Notes: generated by a model from the letters alone, not told the origin. 64,000 bases of DNA from Methanoregula formicica SMSP (GCF_000327485.1 NC_019943.1:1178001-1242000), one strand, 5' to 3'. Counted from the first letter of the stretch, positions 26,390-36,703 are shown. Program-made: numbers and translations.

Positions 26390-26749
26390 ATGGACGAGTC
26401 GTGCACGGTCAACAAGACCGTGAAATACCTGACAAAAAAATGGACGCTCCTGATCATCCTTGAGCTCTACAAGGGTCCGGACCACACGCGCCGGTTCTCA
26501 GAGCTCCGGGACTCCCTGAGCGAGATCACGCAGAAGATTTTGTCGGAGCGCCTGAAGGAACTGGAAGACGAGGGCGTCATCACGAAACATGTTGATGCTT
26601 CGACGTTTCCTGTACGGAGCGAGTACACCCTGACAAAGAGCGGGCTCGAACTTGTGGATGTGATCCGGGGGATCAAGATGTGGGCGCTGAAATGGAAGAT
26701 TGATAATATTCCGTGCGGGAAGCAGGATTGTAGCAAGTGTGTGCTGTGA
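26390..26749 (+). CDS. HxlR-family transcriptional regulator
   Basis: A 119-residue winged-helix regulator. Family marks: KKWTLLIILELYKGP, RFSELRDSLSEITQKILSERLKELEDEGVI and YTLTKSGLELVDVI. It has an N-terminal cysteine (MDESC), and the C-terminus ends CGKQDCSKCVL with three closely spaced cysteines, so a redox- or NO-sensitive metal or disulfide site is plausible. It probably controls the divergent hcp operon and itself. The start lies about 25 bases from a TATA-like element, consistent with a leaderless mRNA. Confidence 0.88.
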   Translation: MDESCTVNKTVKYLTKKWTLLIILELYKGPDHTRRFSELRDSLSEITQKILSERLKELEDEGVITKHVDASTFPVRSEYTLTKSGLELVDVIRGIKMWALKWKIDNIPCGKQDCSKCVL

Positions 26750-26879
26750 AGAAGGGGATGAGGGAATCAGTTTCACCCTGCGCATGGCGTCAATATATAT
26801 TCAACTTTCTCGACAGTGTTAAATCGAAACATATCGATATTCACTATCATATTCTTCGTAATGCTCGATGGAATAAACA

Positions 26880-28667
26880 ATGCAAAACAATCCGCTAAAA
26901 ATTGAATTCAATCGATTGAAAGTGTTATTAACAGCGGAAGCGGAAAAAATCAAAAACCCGGAAAACAGGAATAAATTCGCTCGCTCCATTTGTCAATTAG
27001 TATTAAAGGAATTCTGGTCGGACACTTGCACGAAGAATGGTTGTAACTGGAAGATATGCGAGTCATTTGTTCAGTTTGATAAACCAGAATCAACAGGTGA
27101 GTCGGAAGCCTGTGATGTTGGATCTATCCTAGCTCAACTTCCATTTTCTGAGAGCAGTTATCTTATCGGCACATTATATACCGCTTTATTACCTCAAGAA
27201 ACTCAAGCGGATTTTGGTGCATATTATACTCCGCCCGCACTTGTCGATCGCTTAGTCGGTATGGTGACTGACCAAGGGTTTGATTGGAAAAATGGTACGG
27301 TAATGGATTTGTCCTGCGGTGGTGGTGCGTTTCTCTCCCCAGTTGCTCTTCGGATGTTAGAGTCGTATTCTGTGAAAGATCGGGGTAATCCTTCCCGCAT
27401 CCTCGAGTTGATCTCCAAGAGGTTGCAGGGATTTGAAATTGATCCTTTTGCAGCATGGATGTCGCAGGTTCTTGTAGAGATTGTTTTGTTAGAAATCTGC
27501 ATCAATGCATCTACTCGACTTCCTATTATTGTGAATGTATGCGATACGCTCGAAACATTGCCAAATAATGGAGAAGAAGTCGATCTCGTAATTGGGAATC
27601 CACCATATCGGAAGATTACACTTCCTCCGCATCAGAGAAGAATATTTTCCCGTTCGCTTTATGGACACGCAAACTTGTATGGTGTTTTTACTGACATCGC
27701 AATCCGTTGGACGAAGCCAGCTGGACTTATTGCTTATGTAACCCCAACTTCATTCCTTGGTGGGCAATACTTCAAATCCCTTCGTGCCCTCCTTTCCCAA
27801 TATGCTCCACCAGTGCTAATGGATTTTATTTCTGATAGAAAAGGCGTTTTTGAGGATGTCCTTCAGGAAACAATGCTTGTGGTGTACAAGCGTACAGAAA
27901 ATGAAAAAGAAATCTCCCGCGATCAGTGGGTTACCGTTCATGATCTAAAATCAAATGGTCCTGAAAAACCTGTGGTGAGTGAAAGAATTGGCACATTTTT
28001 ATTGCCAAATGGTGGTGAGGAGCCATGGATCATACCGAAAGCACCAGATCAGGTTAAACTTATTGATAACCTCAAACGGATGCGGAATAGAATCGTCCAC
28101 TTTGGATTTGAAGTCAATACTGGCCCGCTTGTTTGGAACCGACATAAAAATCAGATGAGTACTGAAAAACAGGAGGGAAATTATCCTCTTATTTGGGCTG
28201 AATCCATCCATCCAGATGGACGGTTCTTGTTTAGCGCGAAGAAACGAAATCATCGGCCATACTTAACGCTAAAGAGGAATCAAGAGTTTCTAGTAACGAA
28301 AAAACCATGTATCCTTATTCAACGAACCACTGCGAAGGAGCAGAAAAAACGGATTGTTGCTACAACACTCCCAAAGGAATTTCTCCATATGCATGGTGGA
28401 GTAGTAATTGAAAATCATGTGAATATTATCAAGCAGACGAAGAGTCCTTCCCTAGCCTCGCTTGAAACATTGGCTGTTTTATTGAATTCAAAAATGATAG
28501 ACAAAATTTTTCGTCTGATTAACGGAAGTGTTGCGGTTTCGGCTTTTGAATTAAAAGCATTGCCATTACCAAACAAATCTGACATTAGACATCTCGAACA
28601 ATTAATCCAAAGTGGCGTTTCGAATAGTGAGATTGAATTAGCTATAAAAATGATGTACGAGCGATAG
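26880..28667 (+). CDS. Type II N6-adenine DNA methyltransferase
   Basis: A 595-residue methyltransferase. The AdoMet-binding motif is VMDLSCGGGAFLSPVA near residue 143 and the catalytic motif IV is VIGNPPYRK near residue 238, which marks it as an adenine methylase. The C-terminal half is a target-recognition region (RTTAKEQKKRIVATTLP and following). It protects host DNA against the restriction enzyme encoded four bases downstream. The gene is AT-rich compared with the flanking core genes, in keeping with recent transfer of restriction systems. Confidence 0.88.
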   Translation: MQNNPLKIEFNRLKVLLTAEAEKIKNPENRNKFARSICQLVLKEFWSDTCTKNGCNWKICESFVQFDKPESTGESEACDVGSILAQLPFSESSYLIGTLYTALLPQETQADFGAYYTPPALVDRLVGMVTDQGFDWKNGTVMDLSCGGGAFLSPVALRMLESYSVKDRGNPSRILELISKRLQGFEIDPFAAWMSQVLVEIVLLEICINASTRLPIIVNVCDTLETLPNNGEEVDLVIGNPPYRKITLPPHQRRIFSRSLYGHANLYGVFTDIAIRWTKPAGLIAYVTPTSFLGGQYFKSLRALLSQYAPPVLMDFISDRKGVFEDVLQETMLVVYKRTENEKEISRDQWVTVHDLKSNGPEKPVVSERIGTFLLPNGGEEPWIIPKAPDQVKLIDNLKRMRNRIVHFGFEVNTGPLVWNRHKNQMSTEKQEGNYPLIWAESIHPDGRFLFSAKKRNHRPYLTLKRNQEFLVTKKPCILIQRTTAKEQKKRIVATTLPKEFLHMHGGVVIENHVNIIKQTKSPSLASLETLAVLLNSKMIDKIFRLINGSVAVSAFELKALPLPNKSDIRHLEQLIQSGVSNSEIELAIKMMYER

Positions 28668-28671
28668 CATC

Positions 28672-29784
28672 ATGTCTGATATACAATCACCATCTTTACC
28701 GTCATTACCTTCGATAGATGTGATCAATCAAAGGCTTCCTTTAATTTTCCCGATGGATACTGAACACCGAAGCCAAATTATTGGGAAAATGGCGGTTAGG
28801 ACAATTTTTGTAATGTTTTATATTGGTGCAATAGAGGGAAGAAATGAATGGTTTCAACCGGCACACGTGCTCAATATGGATGATGCACGAGCATCAAGAA
28901 CAAATGAAGAATCTCGTCGATCATGGGCCAAAAGGCGAGAATTTTCATCAGATCGGAGCCTTCATAAATGGTATGCTGACACCACAAAAGAATCAGTTCG
29001 AAAACAAGTGATCCTCTTCGGTCTAATCCCATTAGGAGCAGCAGTCAAAATCGATCTCGGCCAAGAAAATGAGCCGCGATATGCATTAGCACATGATTTT
29101 TCTATATTATTTGATCAGGACCTTTCTGGAGAAGAGTTAACAAGAAAAATTTCTGAATGGCAACGGTCACATCTTACAAGAGCTGCATTGGGAGCGACCG
29201 CTTTAAGGGGATCGGATTCTGGTACTCGCCTTAAGGTCAAGATCCCAAACCACCAAATAATTAGTGAGATGAAATTACCTCCGGGCAAGAGTTCTCTCAT
29301 TATCAAAGAAGTAATTGAAAAATTTTCAGAGAATTTTCTTCATGAACCTCATGTAATCGCTATTAGTACTTCTGAAGCACCATTTCAGCCTATTGATGAT
29401 CAAGTTATCCAAATTCTCAATTTAGATTTTTCAAGCGTTGTGCAGAAAAAAATTTTACCAGATATTATCCTGTGGGATAAATACCTAGATCACGGTCGTT
29501 CTGAGAATTTATTAATATTCATCGAAGTTGTTGCGTCAACAGGATCGATGATTCAAGAAAGAAAAGAGAATATAATGGCCTTTTTACGAACCAGAGAATA
29601 TAATGCTAAAGTTGCATTCGGGACAGCATTTCTGAGCAGAACCGATGAGGCTTACAATAAAAAGAATATTGCTGAAATATCTTGGGGATCTTTTGTTTGG
29701 TTTGCTGCCGAACCCACGAATATCGTTATACTAAACCAAATGGATGCTGAAAACAATAAAAAATTGTCAGATCTAATCCTCTGA
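28672..29784 (+). CDS. BsuBI/PstI-family type II restriction endonuclease
   Basis: A 370-residue restriction enzyme. The C-terminal third carries the family pattern LLIFIEVVASTGSM (E-x-V/K core), KVAFGTAFLSRTDEAYNKKN and ISWGSFVWFAAEP. Family members cut CTGCAG and this one probably does the same, although specificity is inferred from the family alone. It follows the methylase by four bases as one operon. The N-terminal part (residues 1-170) is helical. It is AT-rich like its partner. Confidence 0.82.
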   Translation: MSDIQSPSLPSLPSIDVINQRLPLIFPMDTEHRSQIIGKMAVRTIFVMFYIGAIEGRNEWFQPAHVLNMDDARASRTNEESRRSWAKRREFSSDRSLHKWYADTTKESVRKQVILFGLIPLGAAVKIDLGQENEPRYALAHDFSILFDQDLSGEELTRKISEWQRSHLTRAALGATALRGSDSGTRLKVKIPNHQIISEMKLPPGKSSLIIKEVIEKFSENFLHEPHVIAISTSEAPFQPIDDQVIQILNLDFSSVVQKKILPDIILWDKYLDHGRSENLLIFIEVVASTGSMIQERKENIMAFLRTREYNAKVAFGTAFLSRTDEAYNKKNIAEISWGSFVWFAAEPTNIVILNQMDAENNKKLSDLIL

Positions 29785-30057
29785 TATTTTACGAGTCCCA
29801 CGCGCAAAACGCCTCGCGGGTTTTCGAAGAACGCTTATGCGTTCTTCTCGTGTCTCGACTCTGATGAGTCTCGACATTGCGCTACGCACTTACCTGTACG
29901 AGAATCTGCGTACAGTCTCTTGCCCAGCGAGGGGACGAGAGAATCGACCGTCACATCAGTGAGGGTCGATTGGAGAAGGCGAAGCCTTCGATTGGAGGGG
30001 GGGCATCGCATCAGATCTAATTAAGACGGGATCAAATCGAATTCAAAAAAAATTTCA
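29785..30057. repeat. Hairpin array and dispersed repeat (copy 1)
   Basis: No gene. There are consecutive perfect hairpins at 29,826-29,847 (GAAGAACGC/GCGTTCTTC), 29,895-29,914 (TGTACG/CGTACA), 29,942-29,971 (AATCGACC/GGTCGATT with an inner TCAC/GTGA) and 29,975-29,989 (GAAGGC/GCCTTC). The stretch about 29,872-29,935 (including TACGCACTTACCTGTAC and CCCAGCGA) matches, inverted, the sequence at about 56,223-56,286. Both copies directly follow an AT-rich accessory gene. Confidence 0.6.
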
Positions 30058-31374
30058 TTAATTTTCAATCCACGTATCCAGCGAAACCTTCGGCTTCTTC
30101 GGGAGAACATATCGTACCGGCTTCACCAGTTTCTGAACGTCACCTTTCTCAACAGCCGATGAAAGCCATGCCCGCATCTGTTTTACTTCAACATTGAAGC
30201 ATTCGGCAAGTTCCTTCTCGGTCTTGGGTGTCGCGAGTTGCTTCTCAATGCAGGGCCAGACAATGGGGAAGAGATCGTTGGGTTTCTGCCCAATGTTTAT
30301 CTCTTGGGAAATTTTCTGAGTGCTGCTTGGGATCTCAACGGGCCCTGCTGCAATTTCATGCGGGACCGGAGTTTCTTCCGATGTCGAATACGTGCTCGTG
30401 AGGTCGCATACGATGCAGGGCTTGCCCACCATGGCCTGTGAGTTTTTAAGAATGGTCAGAAATACATCGGGATCCGTAAAGGAATCCGACCGGATGGCGG
30501 TCGCTCCTCGCTCGATTAACCGGTAGTTTCCCTCGGGAACATCCACATCCTCTCTCACGAACAGCGGCACCCACTTATTCTTCAGGTTCTCCGTGGCACC
30601 TGCCCAGGTCCCGCCTTCATTATAGGAGGAGGCAATCACAAGGGTCCAGTCGCTCAGGCAGTACACGAATTTGTTCCGGGCCATCGCGTTACCGACACTG
30701 AACGGGGTCTTTGGATCGTTCGATGTCACGAGCACCAGCCGCTGGTCCCGGAGAGCCTGACGGTATTTGCCGTTTAACGACATTTTCAGGAGGCTGTCCG
30801 CGATAAACCCGATGACCTGTCCCCCCTCCTCAAGCACCGTCTGCATCGCTTCGGAGTCGACACCCCGGGCTCCCCCGGAAATCAACGGAATCCGGTTCTG
30901 GACGCAGAGACGACCGATCTTGTGCGTGGCAAGTTTTGCCCGTTCACTGATATCCCGCGACCCGACGACCGCAAGGCCGCCTTTCGATAACAGTTGGGGA
31001 TTCCCGGCACCAAATAATAACGGCGGGGCTTTGTTCGGAAGACGTTCAGTCAATCGTCGGGGATAATGTTTATCGGTTGGAGAAAGGATCCAGATCCCCT
31101 TATTGTTCCAGTCTTCGACCGCAAGGGCAAGTGCCCCGCCCCGGTTTAGTAATTCCGGTAATCGCTTTGCATCGAACCGGGAAATTTTACTGTAGCGATC
31201 GACAACTTCAGAATCAAAAAGGTCCGGCAGAGTCTTTGATTCGTTTCTCAGCCACTGGCATAATGAAAAATATTCCGCAGCATTCAGTGGGGTTTTTGAC
31301 GATTCGTTCTGTCCGAATCTCCCGCACAGCAGGAACGTTACCTGCGTATCCGGTGTTATCGAATCCGGTATCAT
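30058..31374 (-). CDS. dprA: DprA/Smf-family DNA-processing protein
   Basis: A 438-residue protein. The Rossmann-like SLOG/DprA domain spans about residues 95-330, with AVVGSRDISERAK near 136, ISGGARGVDSEAMQ near 165 and SYNEGGTWAGATENL further on. An N-terminal region of about 90 residues precedes it. A C-terminal winged-helix-like segment (TEKELAECFNVEVKQMRAWL) resembles the DprA tail. In bacteria DprA loads RecA on incoming single-stranded DNA. Here the ATG overlaps the stop of the RecQ-fusion gene (ATGA), so the two are made together. Confidence 0.82.
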   Translation of the reverse strand: MIPDSITPDTQVTFLLCGRFGQNESSKTPLNAAEYFSLCQWLRNESKTLPDLFDSEVVDRYSKISRFDAKRLPELLNRGGALALAVEDWNNKGIWILSPTDKHYPRRLTERLPNKAPPLLFGAGNPQLLSKGGLAVVGSRDISERAKLATHKIGRLCVQNRIPLISGGARGVDSEAMQTVLEEGGQVIGFIADSLLKMSLNGKYRQALRDQRLVLVTSNDPKTPFSVGNAMARNKFVYCLSDWTLVIASSYNEGGTWAGATENLKNKWVPLFVREDVDVPEGNYRLIERGATAIRSDSFTDPDVFLTILKNSQAMVGKPCIVCDLTSTYSTSEETPVPHEIAAGPVEIPSSTQKISQEINIGQKPNDLFPIVWPCIEKQLATPKTEKELAECFNVEVKQMRAWLSSAVEKGDVQKLVKPVRYVLPKKPKVSLDTWIEN

Positions 31375-33470
31375 AGGACATCCTTGCCTTGCGTATCTGT
31401 CAGAGCACAGGGATAGACCGGGCCGCTTCCGGCAGATTGCAGCATGGCCGAAAGAATCGTAAATGTCCACCGGGAATCGACCATATCGTCAATTAAGAGG
31501 ACCGGGCCTTCCATGACAGAGTCCTGATCGATCTCAAAGGCGCCGTCAAGATTGGATACCTGCATAAAGCTGTTTTTCATCATCTTCTGCGGTTGGGTTT
31601 CCTTGATTTTCCGGATACAGTCCACGAATGGGATTTTGAGCGTCACGGCGAGTGCCATCGAGAAATTTTTTACGAGAGTCTTTTTCCTGAGTGACGGGAC
31701 ACAGGTTATCCATGTCGGCATGGGATTGGGTTTCCACTGGTTAACGATCAGATCACGCATTGCATCTACAAGTTTATTATCGAAATGATTTGCGTGTTTT
31801 CCGGCTTTGACAACTTCTCCCCAGCCCCCGTCACCCCATGAAGAGAGTGCCCGCCCGGGGTTTGCCCGGAGTTCCTCAGGAATATGCCCATGCCATTTTT
31901 CCGTTGAGAATGAAAGCCCTGGCGGCCATTGACGACGCGGGGAGATGACATGCTGGTTCGAATAAAGGAACCGTCGCGCTCTTGCTACCACTTCCTCCGA
32001 TGGTTCCTCAGGAAGCAATGCATGGCCGATACAAACCGAACATTTGCCGCAGGGTATTGCTTTGGGATCTTCCAGATCCCGCTGGAGGAATTCCATCAGG
32101 CAGGAACGGCTCCGCACATAATCGTTAATCCTGCCCCACTCTGCGCGACGGAGAGATGTCAGTCGTTGTATTTTTTCCTTATTTATGGTGTAAGCGGCAG
32201 CGGTTGCACGATAGCGGGGACCGTCTTTCACGATCGGAGACGGGCTCTCGATGGAAATAATTTTGAAAACATTTTCGATCTGCGACTGCGAAAGATTGGT
32301 ACGTGCTTCTATCATGGGGACGGATAACCCCTCGGGAGTTTTTTCCAGCTCCTCAAGGATCGTGGTAACGTGATCTTCCCGGGGAAACGCGGTTTTGATA
32401 AAATATTCAACGATATCCTGATCCTCTTCGCCCGCGAGTAAAATTCCGTATGCACAAGGAAGCGACCGGCCGGCCCGACCCACCTGCTGGTAATAGGTAA
32501 CCACCGACATCGGCCTTTGGTAATGGATAACAAACCCGAGATCCGGTTTATCGAAACCCATGCCAAGTGCACTGGTAGCGACAAGCACTTTGATCTTATT
32601 ATCGAGAAGATCCTGCTCCATCTCCTCTCGCAACGATGGATCGGATTCGCCGGAATACGCACGGGAATCAATTCCCTGCGACTGCAACCACCGGGCAACG
32701 CGGTCCGAATCCTTCACCGTCATGGTGTAAATGATCCCGCTCCCTGGCATCTTTGGGACATTTTCTGCCAGCCATGCGAGGCGTATGGCGCGCGAGGGTA
32801 TGACGATATTCTGAAGACTAAGAGATGCCCGGCCGAGCGGCCCCCGGAACACCCCTAAACGTTCCCCGATTTGGGCACGGATATCTTTGATAACCCTGTC
32901 ATTTGCCGTGGCTGTCGTGGCAAGAAGAGGAATATTTTCCGGGAGCACCCGAAGAATCCGGAGAATCCGTTGATAATCCGGACGAAAGTCATGACCCCAG
33001 TCGCTGATGCAATGGGCTTCGTCAATAACAAAAAGACCCAAGGTCCGGGCGAGAGGTATTAGCTTTTCACGGAATTCCTCGTTGGATAACCGTTCCGGAG
33101 AAATAATAAGAATATCGATCTTCCCTGCTTCGAGATCGTGATATATATGATCCCATTCTTCATGATTGCTCGAATTGATTGTTCTTGCCGCCAGACCTAT
33201 TCGCTCCGCTGCTAAGATCTGGTTCCGCATCAACGCAAGTAACGGAGAAATAAGCAGCGTGGGGCCGGTGCCCCGGTCGCGCAGCAGTTTCGTTGCGATA
33301 AAATATACAATGCTTTTTCCCCAACCGGTGCGCTGGACCACAAGAAGGTGAGCATTCTCATTCACCAGCTGGTCAATTATCTCCCACTGCCCGGCCCGGA
33401 ATTCTGCATGGGGATCCTGTAATGCCGTTCTGAGAAGATCAAGAGATTTTTGGTTTAATGAGGTACTCAT
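31371..33470 (-). CDS. recQ: RecQ-family helicase fused to a ComF-like phosphoribosyltransferase domain
   Basis: A 699-residue fusion. The helicase part has TGWGKS (residues 48-53), VIDEAHCISDWGHDFRP (DEAH at 150-153), VLVATSALGMGFDKPD and YYQQVGRAGRS. A zinc-knuckle-like CGKCSVC near residue 470 follows a winged-helix linker. From about residue 586 it matches ComF-type phosphoribosyltransferases: TWITCVPSLRKK, then KETQPQKMMKN, then the PRPP loop VLLIDDMVDSRWT (about 657-669), in which the usual glycine is replaced. It overlaps dprA by four bases. RecQ, ComF and DprA functions together suggest processing of single-stranded or foreign DNA. A defence role is inferred. Confidence 0.85.
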   Translation of the reverse strand: MSTSLNQKSLDLLRTALQDPHAEFRAGQWEIIDQLVNENAHLLVVQRTGWGKSIVYFIATKLLRDRGTGPTLLISPLLALMRNQILAAERIGLAARTINSSNHEEWDHIYHDLEAGKIDILIISPERLSNEEFREKLIPLARTLGLFVIDEAHCISDWGHDFRPDYQRILRILRVLPENIPLLATTATANDRVIKDIRAQIGERLGVFRGPLGRASLSLQNIVIPSRAIRLAWLAENVPKMPGSGIIYTMTVKDSDRVARWLQSQGIDSRAYSGESDPSLREEMEQDLLDNKIKVLVATSALGMGFDKPDLGFVIHYQRPMSVVTYYQQVGRAGRSLPCAYGILLAGEEDQDIVEYFIKTAFPREDHVTTILEELEKTPEGLSVPMIEARTNLSQSQIENVFKIISIESPSPIVKDGPRYRATAAAYTINKEKIQRLTSLRRAEWGRINDYVRSRSCLMEFLQRDLEDPKAIPCGKCSVCIGHALLPEEPSEEVVARARRFLYSNQHVISPRRQWPPGLSFSTEKWHGHIPEELRANPGRALSSWGDGGWGEVVKAGKHANHFDNKLVDAMRDLIVNQWKPNPMPTWITCVPSLRKKTLVKNFSMALAVTLKIPFVDCIRKIKETQPQKMMKNSFMQVSNLDGAFEIDQDSVMEGPVLLIDDMVDSRWTFTILSAMLQSAGSGPVYPCALTDTQGKDVL

Positions 33471-34776
33471 GTCAATTTCTCCGGTATGGGATTTCCGGCA
33501 ACTTTTTCCCTACGATCGATTACGGAGATCCAATTGATGACGCGGGCAAATACCGGATATCATGACAAATTTTTATTTTATGATTTCATTAACCTCCTGT
33601 TATATTATGTGGTGTGCACCGGGAAAGTATCACAAATGCGTTCGCTCTCCTTCATTTGCATGCTAAAATTTTTCTGGAAAATTTTCTCTGTCCGGAAAAA
33701 TTTTTCCACATATTTTTCAAACATTTTTCCGGAATATTTATCGATCTCACGATAACAACCCTGAAAAAATTAAATGGTTCTGCTACAAAAAATCCATATC
33801 CCCTGTGAGATTTGGGCGTCATCTCAAACCCGTCGAATTGGACAGGATTAAAAAATTATAATCCCACCTGCGGATTTCCCAGTTCCCCTTTGTCACGCTC
33901 GTTCTCTCAAAACTATTGCAATACCACCGGAATAAAAAATTAGTAAATCGAAAAATCTCTCTCGCATTTCAAATATTTCATTTCCAAAAAAATTTCCGGA
34001 AAAAATTTCTCAAAAGTTTTTCCATTTAAGAAAAAATTTTAAAAATTTCCGTCTCGTAACAATCACAAAAAATCTCCGCCCCGCCCGTTCAGTTACTCGT
34101 TATTCCGCCTGCGAGCACCGCCTCCAGGAACCCCCTTTTTCAGGATCTGGTACATACCCAATCCGGCTCCTGTACGGGCTCCGATGTACTACTTTTCCTG
34201 AACGGAGCCCTATAAGGCCCCGGATCGGGATCCGCCGACCCCCTGTTTGATGCGATCCACCTGGAGGTATTTCCAAAACAGGAGGTCCGGGCGATCTCTC
34301 CGTCGGAAGCCCGTTTCACCGACGGAGACCTCATAGTCTTGAGGGGCTCTTTGGAACCTGAAATCCCTGAAATGCAATCTCCCCGCAAATCGTTTTGTTT
34401 TCGAATCGGAGCCCATTTTGGAAAACCGCTTTTTGGAAGATCGCATTTTTTTGCGAATTACGATACACAGTTTTCGAAATGCCTCCGAAATGTCGTTCAT
34501 TCCCCCAACAGAAGTCATAATGGGCTCGAAAAAATGTCAATATAGTCGCTCTGGTACAAAGGATCGCTGTTTTTTCTGGACATGAGCCCATGAAATGAAA
34601 AGAACCCCCCTTTTCCGGCCCCCTCTTACGACGGAGTGGGATATCCCACCGTCGAAGAAACCTGCGGTTTCGGTCGAAGACCTATGGTCTTCTCCTGATC
34701 CAGGTCATACGACCTTCATCATTCTCCACCTCCAGATCTGAAGACCTGTCGGACGTCGAAGAAACCTGATGCTTCC
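33471..34776. other. 1.3 kb gene-free region with palindromes and hairpins
   Basis: No protein-like frame. From 33,480 to 34,080 it is very AT-rich, with repeated TTTCCGGAAA-like words, including the perfect palindrome GGAAAAATTTTTCC at 33,694-33,707. From 34,170 to 34,200 it shares about 40 bases of similarity with 56,532-56,575. From 34,636 to 34,714 four perfect hairpins follow one another: GTGGGAT/ATCCCAC, GAAACC/GGTTTC, GAAGACC/GGTCTTC and AGGTC/GACCT. CTCCGTCGG/CCGACGGAG is another inverted repeat, near 34,298-34,327. Confidence 0.5.
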
Positions 34777-35871
34777 CTACTCCCTCCTCGCCTTCTGGAT
34801 CTCCTTTCCGAGTTTCGCAATCCCTTTCCAGCGTTTTCTCTCAGAACGGACAAGGCCGATCTCCGCTTTGTCCTGCTCGAATGCAAGCTCGCGGCTGAGC
34901 CGGTGGAAATTCTCGAGCCGGGCCGCGGAGAGTTTCCCGGCCTTCACGGCTTCCTGCACGGCACAGCCCGGTTCCCGCTCGTGCCGGCAGTCTGAAAACC
35001 GGCAGCGCTCCGCCAGCTCCCGGATGTCAGGGAACGCGTCACTCAAACCGGTCGAAGCGGTCCCGATGCCCACTTCGCGGATCCCGGGATTATCGATCAT
35101 GAGCGCACCGCTGTTCAGGACAAAGAGCTGGCGAACGGTTGTTGTGTGCCGGCCTTTCCCGTCATCCTCGCGGATACCCGATGTTTTCTGCGTTTCGCAT
35201 CCGAGGAGCCGGTTGATCAGGGTGGACTTGCCGACACCCGATGAACCGATAAGCACGATCGTCTGGCCGGGCCTGAGATACGGGTCGAGCAAACCGATCC
35301 CCTCACCGCTCATGGCACTCACGGGAATGACCGGAATACCGGACGAGACCGGAATAATTGTTCCGGTCAGCGAAGCAGGATCATCTGCAAGATCGGATTT
35401 GTTGATGACGATCACCGGCCGGGCCCCGGATGCGTGGACAATCGCGAGATACCGTTCGATCCGGCGGGCGTTCAGCTCAGGGCCGGCTGCGGTCACGATA
35501 AAGACCGTGTCGATGTTTGCCGCAATGACCTGGTCCGTTCCCTCCCGCCCGGAGGCTCCCCGGGTGAACACCGTCGTTTGCGGGAGGATTGCAACGATCG
35601 TTATGGATCCGGCCTCCGGCTGGTGGAGCAGCACGACAAAATCCCCCACGGCCGGAAACCGTCCGAGTTTTTTTAAGGCTCCGGAGATCCCGGCCATGAC
35701 CGGCCCGCTTCCGGTAAAAACTTCCCAGACGGTCTTCTGCCGGCACGCAACGCGCCCCGGGATGTACGGTCCCGAAAATTTTCTGAATGCTTCCTTGTGT
35801 TCTTCTGTCCAGCCAAGCTGTTCCAGGGTATAAGGATGCGGCTCTCCGCATCCGGGAATGGATGGGTTCAT
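34777..35871 (-). CDS. rsgA: Ribosome small-subunit-dependent GTPase RsgA
   Basis: A 364-residue circularly permuted GTPase. An N-terminal OB-fold (VGDFVVLLHQPEAGSITIVAI) is followed by the permuted G motifs: VINKSDLA (G4), then IGSSGVGKSTLINRLLG (G1), KGRHTTT (G2) and LMIDNPGIREVG (G3). The C-terminal zinc site is CRFSDCRHEREPGC. In bacteria RsgA acts in 30S subunit maturation. Its presence in a methanogen suggests acquisition from bacteria, although the base composition matches the host core. The surrounding islands are AT-rich, so this is an inlier. Confidence 0.92.
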   Translation of the reverse strand: MNPSIPGCGEPHPYTLEQLGWTEEHKEAFRKFSGPYIPGRVACRQKTVWEVFTGSGPVMAGISGALKKLGRFPAVGDFVVLLHQPEAGSITIVAILPQTTVFTRGASGREGTDQVIAANIDTVFIVTAAGPELNARRIERYLAIVHASGARPVIVINKSDLADDPASLTGTIIPVSSGIPVIPVSAMSGEGIGLLDPYLRPGQTIVLIGSSGVGKSTLINRLLGCETQKTSGIREDDGKGRHTTTVRQLFVLNSGALMIDNPGIREVGIGTASTGLSDAFPDIRELAERCRFSDCRHEREPGCAVQEAVKAGKLSAARLENFHRLSRELAFEQDKAEIGLVRSERKRWKGIAKLGKEIQKARRE

Positions 35872-36021
35872 AAAAAAACCTGAACGTTTGTATTGACAGG
35901 TGATTGTTTGCGGTCCAAGTGCTTTGTGGTCACGTTCTCCAGATGCGATTCTGAGATTACAAATCCCTCTGCCGTGCGGTAAGTGACGTTTCAGCCTGTT
36001 CGAAAAAGAGAGAAATGAAAA

Positions 36022-36374
36022 TTATTTCCCGGTTCCTTTCTCGTGCGCGACAATGGCTGCGATCTCCACCTGCAACAGTGGAATCTTATTGACAATAATA
36101 TCCCAGAGGATCTCCAGATCAACACCGAAATACCCATGAATGAGCGTGTCCCGGAACCCGGCAATCGATTTCCAGTCAGTATTTGGGTACCGTGCTTTCA
36201 GATCAGGGCTTAGGTGGTTTGTTGCCTCACCAACAATCTCAAAGTTACGGACAACTGCATCGATCCGCATCCGGTCATTTTTGAACTCCTCGAATGTCAT
36301 GGTGCCAACATAGGACCGGTATTTCCTGCCGCCTCAGTAATGTCATTGAGGTACCGCAGTTGCGACCTAGGCAT
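36022..36374 (-). pseudogene. hepT: hepT toxin gene (HEPN, DUF86) with an apparent -1 frameshift
   Basis: The first codons (MPRSQLRYLNDITEAA, from 36,374) and the remainder (RKYRSYVGTMTFEEF and onward) are both typical HepT, but they lie in different frames. One base appears to be missing near 36,326. The joined product would have the usual length, about 117 residues. The downstream frame also has an ATG at 36,300 giving a 92-residue product that keeps the toxic motif FRDTLIHGYF (R-x4-H-x-Y). HepT is a HEPN ribonuclease inactivated by AMPylation of the Tyr by MntA. The gene overlaps mntA by eight bases. It may be a true mutation, a sequencing error, or a shortened product. Confidence 0.75.
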
Positions 36375-36651
36375 ACACGACTTCCTGCAGGATTGGTTCG
36401 CGGATCAGCGGTTTGAGCGCTGCATCCGTCACCAGATCAACTTTTCTTTGAAATAGATCTTCAAGATAGAATTTTGTTCCCATGAAATTGTCAAACGTCT
36501 TTTTCCCTTCCTGGAAAGTAACAAGGATGTCAACATCGCTATCAAGTCGCTCCTCTCTACGTGAGAATGACCCGAAGATCCCAATCTTCGCTACACTAAA
36601 CCGCTTCTTAAGTTCCGGTTCATGCTCGCGGAGGAGTGAGAGCGCATCCAT
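36367..36651 (-). CDS. mntA: MntA-type nucleotidyltransferase antitoxin
   Basis: A 94-residue minimal nucleotidyltransferase. The active-site pattern GIFGSFSRREERLDSDVDILV (G-S-x10-D-x-D, residues about 25-44) is intact. MntA AMPylates the tyrosine next to the HepT active-site histidine and so neutralises it. The gene precedes hepT and overlaps it, as in known HepT/MntA modules. With hepT frameshifted, this antitoxin may be a leftover or may still control the shortened product. Confidence 0.88.
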   Translation of the reverse strand: MDALSLLREHEPELKKRFSVAKIGIFGSFSRREERLDSDVDILVTFQEGKKTFDNFMGTKFYLEDLFQRKVDLVTDAALKPLIREPILQEVVYA

Positions 36652-36703
36652 GATCTCTGTTGGTGAGTTGTTGGTCTGTTCTTATTATTAATCCATTGAC
36701 GGG

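Follow-up and report, generated by a model that had tools for sequence, protein, structure and literature searches.

A PsyrTA (RqlHI) operon of probable bacterial origin in the methanogenic archaeon Methanoregula formicica SMSP

The window considered here, a stretch of 64,000 nucleotides from the genome of Methanoregula formicica SMSP, carries at positions 30058-33470 two genes on the minus strand, and these limits, drawn in the original prediction, proved exact for the pair. A RecQ-like helicase with a C-terminal phosphoribosyltransferase (PRTase) domain is encoded by psyrT and a DprA-family protein by psyrA, with the following features:

31371-33470, minus strand: psyrT (rqlH-like), 699 aa, RecQ-like SF2 helicase with a C-terminal ComF-like PRTase; predicted toxin
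32421-33470, minus strand: helicase core, residues ~1-350 (Pfam DEAD and Helicase_C; Walker A GWGKS with K52; DEAH box at D150)
31392-31883, minus strand: PRTase domain, residues ~530-693 (profile match to PRPP synthetase/PurF, model fold and alignment)
31464-31502, minus strand: PRPP-binding loop motif VLLIDDMVDSRWT, residues 657-669 (conservation in the PsyrT set and RqlH alignment)
31371-31374, minus strand: ATGA overlap of 4 nt between the psyrT stop (TGA) and the psyrA start (ATG), read from the sequence
30058-31374, minus strand: psyrA (rqlI-like), 438 aa, DprA family; predicted antitoxin or partner
30493-31110, minus strand: DprA Rossmann (SLOG) core of PsyrA (PF02481, DNA_processg_A, E 1.9e-35)
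30100-30273, minus strand: C-terminal HTH-like domain of PsyrA (model helices 369-379, 386-393 and 397-409 plus a beta hairpin)

The N-terminal part of PsyrT matched the Pfam families DEAD (E 3.8e-24) and Helicase_C (E 4.5e-17), while Pfam gave no match in the C-terminus, so that the PRTase tail is missed by Pfam alone. A profile made from the last 200 residues of 22 homologues matched PRPP synthetases (E 1e-5) and the PurF amidophosphoribosyltransferase (E 2.5e-3) in the PDB, the alignment being centred on the PRPP loop. Besides, the AlphaFold2 model of PsyrT (mean pLDDT 91.1, pTM 0.87), which had RecQ (4tmu/1oyw) as its best Foldseek match, presents the C-terminal domain as an ordered alpha/beta fold. 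The PRPP-enzyme matches and the ordered model make the PRTase reading of the tail sound and, together with the full-length family match described below, confirm the fusion of RecQ to a ComF-like PRTase that had been proposed. Within the PRPP loop, D661 and S666 were invariant among 36 aligned PsyrT sequences. Alignment with the E. coli plasmid copy showed that K52 corresponds to K49 of RqlH, D150 to D148, and D662-M-V-D665 to the DIVD motif; the RqlH residues mutated in earlier work (PMC4670107) are therefore conserved in the Methanoregula protein.

The start of psyrA is best placed at the ATG at 31374, and a GTG located 96 nt upstream, which would give a longer frame, is not needed. The overlap between the stop of the RecQ gene and the dprA start had also been anticipated. 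In the structure model, a disordered linker (residues ~320-364) precedes the HTH-like domain of PsyrA, and Foldseek matched the model to the crystal structures of DprA from S. pneumoniae (3uqz) and of the E. coli antitoxin ShosA (8zva).

Both proteins belong to families dedicated to a known system. PsyrT matched the PADLOC family PsyrT PDLC03928 (E 7.1e-286, 948 bits, residues 7-697 of 699) and PsyrA the family PsyrA PDLC03927 (E 1.6e-124, 414 bits, residues 8-426), and chance is excluded, since these matches extend along the full length of both proteins and the same gene order is seen in many phyla. The pair at 30058-33470 is the known PsyrTA (RqlHI) module and not a new one, so the original prediction of a candidate DNA-processing or defence module has to be supplemented: the pair has already been described experimentally as PsyrTA/RqlHI and is catalogued in PADLOC. 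A housekeeping RecQ was discarded as the identity of PsyrT (286 bits vs the TIGR01389 cut-off of 640), all the more because an ordinary RecQ is encoded separately in the same genome (C1:2711018-2712016).

PsyrTA has been reported to be a functional toxin-antitoxin pair (Sberro et al., 2013, as cited in PMC8790059). In pathogenic E. coli, RqlH is genotoxic without RqlI, its toxicity requires the PRTase and is abolished by changes in the DIVD motif, and RqlI binds RqlH and counters the toxicity through its DprA-containing N-terminal part, the HTH of RqlI being dispensable (PMC4670107). Helicase-dead RqlH was not milder (PMC4670107), which suggests a restraining effect of the helicase on the PRTase. 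What has been demonstrated for PsyrTA/RqlHI is behaviour resembling that of a toxin-antitoxin, in which the DprA-like protein is the antitoxin, rather than DNA processing. For the E. coli homologue, the genotoxicity was shown to depend on the PRTase, and the DprA-like partner to interact physically with the toxin and to neutralise it; these properties would extend to the archaeal pair by analogy; within our incomplete coverage of the literature, we found no paper describing PsyrTA in a methanogen and no experiment on an archaeal copy.

The two genes travel together. PsyrA lies directly downstream of PsyrT in 72 of 78 informative loci, as counted among the best 80 homologous loci of one-per-species genomes, where two of the eight remaining loci are cut off by contig ends; this survey of genome context agrees with the expectation of a fixed dprA partner. 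Intact psyrT is present in 4 of 39 Methanoregula genomes, including the source genome, and in a phylum sample of 393 genomes PsyrT-class and PsyrA-class proteins were each found in nine. A closely similar locus occurs in Methanoregula sp. STB_131, whose PsyrT is 85% identical, and in another genome of the genus (G012) the contig ends within the psyrA that follows psyrT.

In a maximum-likelihood tree, the four Methanoregula PsyrT sequences form one clade (support 100) within a large bacterial group of cyanobacterial, Chloroflexota and Gemmatimonadota sequences, and two other sets of archaeal PsyrT (families f13/f23 and f10) branch elsewhere; the tree was made by a quick method and has short inner branches, so the donor is not identifiable from it. 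Because the Methanoregula sequences are nested among bacterial ones and lie apart from other archaeal copies, psyrTA was probably acquired from bacteria in this genus, and we favour several separate archaeal acquisitions of PsyrT, as the branching suggests.

PsyrT without PsyrA was observed at four archaeal loci (L146, L163, L164 and L170), one of them on a plasmid of Halanaeroarchaeum, much as RqlH occurs alone in Gram-positives. As many Gram-positives carry RqlH/PsyrT without PsyrA (PMC4670107), and the haloarchaeal-type copies examined also do so, toxicity may not be universal. Additionally, a rearranged psyrT on contig C9 of another genome (L161:2312-5557 of G046) lacks residues ~181-524, comprising the second helicase lobe and the zinc region; a TPR-like extension is attached to its N-terminal lobe, and a separate frame that overlaps an intact psyrA encodes the PRTase. 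Near-identical copies of the E. coli plasmid psyrTA were found in 53 of 5,426 complete E. coli genomes, almost all of them chromosomal. Carriage as phage cargo appears rare and was rejected as an explanation, given that 50,697 phage records held no full-length PsyrT and viral contigs gave only two full-length and two partial close matches.

The genomic surroundings of the pair in the window comprise the following genes:

26880-28667, plus strand: Eco57I-class N6-adenine methyltransferase of a type II restriction-modification (R-M) system (PF07669; PADLOC MTase_II, 699 bits)
28672-29784, plus strand: BsuBI/PstI-type restriction endonuclease (PF06616, E 5.2e-47; PF17728, E 1.1e-29)
34777-35871: rsgA, between psyrTA and the HEPN/MNT pair
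36022-36651: HEPN/MNT pair, with the HepT (HEPN) RNase gene at 36022-36380 and an intact MNT gene at 36367-36651

The type II R-M pair adjoining psyrTA is complete and lies on the opposite strand. Both the R-M system (26880-29784) and the HEPN/MNT module had been named as neighbours, correctly as to their presence, but the HEPN frame is broken and rsgA intervenes. The break in the HepT gene lies near 36300, with the N-terminal part in another frame and a 92-aa open frame left. G+C content is 0.40-0.43 in the R-M genes, 0.50-0.54 in psyrTA and mostly 0.56-0.63 in the genes on either side. What lies between hxlR and rsgA varies within the genus, since one Methanoregula genome (G031) carries the R-M and psyrTA block at the same place, another (G037) has only ~2.1 kb between the same flanks, and a third (G021) has ~13 kb of unrelated content. 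No convincing terminal repeats bounding an island were found within 26700-36700. A dispersed non-coding repeat of ~225 bp is located at ~34370-34600, with ~15 full or partial copies in the genome, in both orientations and at 71-88% identity.

Beyond Methanoregula, three plasmids illustrate the settings of psyrTA. In a conjugative plasmid of E. coli the pair interrupts a type I R-M operon (hsdM-hsdS-psyrT-psyrA-hsdR), in one from Acinetobacter it separates pglX from pglZ within a BREX operon, and in one from Nostoc a copy has parA/parB as neighbours. When the genes directly flanking 47 other loci were tallied with PADLOC, members of type I R-M, Hma and BREX (BrxL) systems were among them; the tally was made without a control set and offers examples, not a measure of enrichment. 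The mobile or defence contexts that had been expected thus exist as R-M, BREX and plasmid examples, but in a published survey (PMC10924106) PsyrTA was under-represented in defence islands as a whole, though found together with other systems where it did occur in such islands.

We consider it probable that the pair is a bacterial-derived PsyrTA (RqlHI) operon, working most likely as a protein-protein toxin-antitoxin or abortive-infection module. PsyrT would bind DNA through its RecQ helicase part and carry the PRTase tail as a latent toxin acting with PRPP on nucleotides or nucleobases, whereas PsyrA, through its DprA/SLOG fold, would bind PsyrT and either silence the tail or undo its damage; the helicase part may also hold the PRTase in check. 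PsyrA could be disturbed when foreign DNA invades, when replication is under stress or when the operon is lost; the PRTase would be left active, and altered nucleotide pools or DNA bases would then lead to DNA damage and growth stop. For the archaeal PsyrT, we infer toxicity, trigger, PRTase substrate and defence benefit. A conflict role is favoured over transformation, in keeping with the earlier preference for a role against foreign DNA, which is the more plausible in a genome without ComEC; an anti-phage effect, however, is not uniformly supported (PMC12409345).

The same features could describe a selfish addiction module that stabilises its island or plasmid without antiviral benefit, an alternative that we regard as rather unlikely. 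RqlHI does behave as a toxin-antitoxin, the Nostoc copy sits beside partition genes, and one E. coli PsyrTA expressed in K-12 gave no detectable phage protection (PMC12409345), a result that keeps both simple addiction and genome maintenance as live rivals. However, the copies inserted in operons for BREX and type I R-M suggest that the pair has become part of defence, and the stand-alone relative ShosTA is reported to be anti-phage, with ShosT combining PRTase and pyrophosphatase activities on purine pools, ShosA binding DNA, and T7 Gp0.7 serving as a trigger (review, PMC12593503).

It is quite unlikely, in our judgement, that the proteins form a DNA-repair or genome-maintenance complex working on host DNA, toxic only when unbalanced and concerned with neither defence nor addiction. 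Russell and Mulvey favour a cooperative function of RqlH and RqlI on DNA (PMC4670107), and the apparent restraint of the PRTase by the helicase, as well as the solo PsyrT of many Gram-positives and some archaea, would fit such a complex. Nonetheless, a patchy, accessory distribution in Methanoregula, transfer between phyla in the tree, residence in R-M and BREX operons and on plasmids, and an E. coli deletion of both rql genes with no fitness cost detected (PMC4670107) argue against it.

The survey of DprA in the genus bears on the two remaining alternatives. At the threshold used, DprA-family proteins occur in only 5 of 39 Methanoregula genomes, and all seven copies adjoin a PRTase: three belong to PsyrTA (G000, the source genome, G001 and G031), two to ShosTA-like pairs (G001 and G024) and two to ComF-DprA pairs (G000 and G012). 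DprA is therefore present in Methanoregula only as a PRTase partner. The source genome has a second PRTase-DprA pair at L116:461-2102 (C1:279460-281102), in which the gene for a ShosA-like DprA (E 1.3e-69), at C1:279553-280158, overlaps that of a ComF-like PRTase bearing a zinc ribbon. One contig of G001 (C133; L113:1498-10100) combines psyrTA with a ShosTA-like pair ~3 kb upstream of it, and the same 9 kb also encode a Cas4-like nuclease and a DEDDh exonuclease.

A bolder reading, which we hold to be doubtful and offer as speculation, is that PsyrTA is a cross-domain, DNA-guided nucleotide weapon and that these methanogens keep interchangeable PRTase-DprA modules (PsyrTA, ShosTA-like and ComF-DprA) as their sole use of DprA; the PRTase would ride with the helicase along DNA that is invading or damaged, and might there phosphoribosylate bases or consume PRPP locally. 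A module for DNA uptake by natural transformation, suggested by the ComF-like PRTase signature, the DprA fold and the transformation or competence GO terms given to homologues in public records by sequence similarity, is highly improbable, because the genome gave no match to the ComEC family (PF03772), consistent with the earlier remark that the window shows no other competence genes, DprA is confined to PRTase partners across the 39 genomes, and PsyrA scored 83.8 bits against the curated cut-off of 191 for dprA, so that a canonical competence identity was rejected.

Taken together, these results extend to methanogens a module that is characterised in bacteria as a toxin-antitoxin and is a candidate for anti-phage action; it seems to have reached them from bacteria, independently of the other archaeal copies. 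The new element is small, namely an archaeal PsyrTA member probably acquired from bacteria and the exclusive partnership of DprA with PRTases in Methanoregula. The pairing of every DprA found in the 39 genomes with a PRTase supports the view that PRTase-DprA pairs recur as units of conflict with no tie to natural transformation, and the methanogen psyrTA provides an archaeal test case for the PRTase substrate.

Among the known systems, DpdF of the Dpd 7-deazaguanine DNA modification has a related RecQ-like helicase, and several PADLOC DpdF models match PsyrT; this identity was rejected (158.8 bits vs the NCBIfam equivalog cut-off of 550), and no other dpd genes were recognised among the neighbours examined. 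ShosTA shares the combination of a PRTase toxin with a DprA antitoxin, and PsyrA has a secondary match to ShosA (E 4.6e-24), but ShosT is a stand-alone PRTase without a helicase; with its PRTase fused to a helicase and PsyrA scoring 414 bits vs 83 for ShosA, the pair was not assigned to ShosTA. The likeness to RqlH-RqlI of E. coli F11 (PMC4670107) is closer, since a RecQ-PRTase toxin is joined by a DprA/HTH partner and K49, D148 and DIVD are kept; the HTH occupies the same place in RqlI and in the Methanoregula PsyrA, whereas the linker and C-terminus diverge. Finally, the pair agrees with PsyrTA as defined in PADLOC and DefenseFinder in the full-length match of both proteins and in gene order, orientation and domains, and differs in having a methanogenic archaeon as its host and in its identity of ~51% (PsyrT) and ~36% (PsyrA) to the enterobacterial pair of the E. 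coli plasmid.
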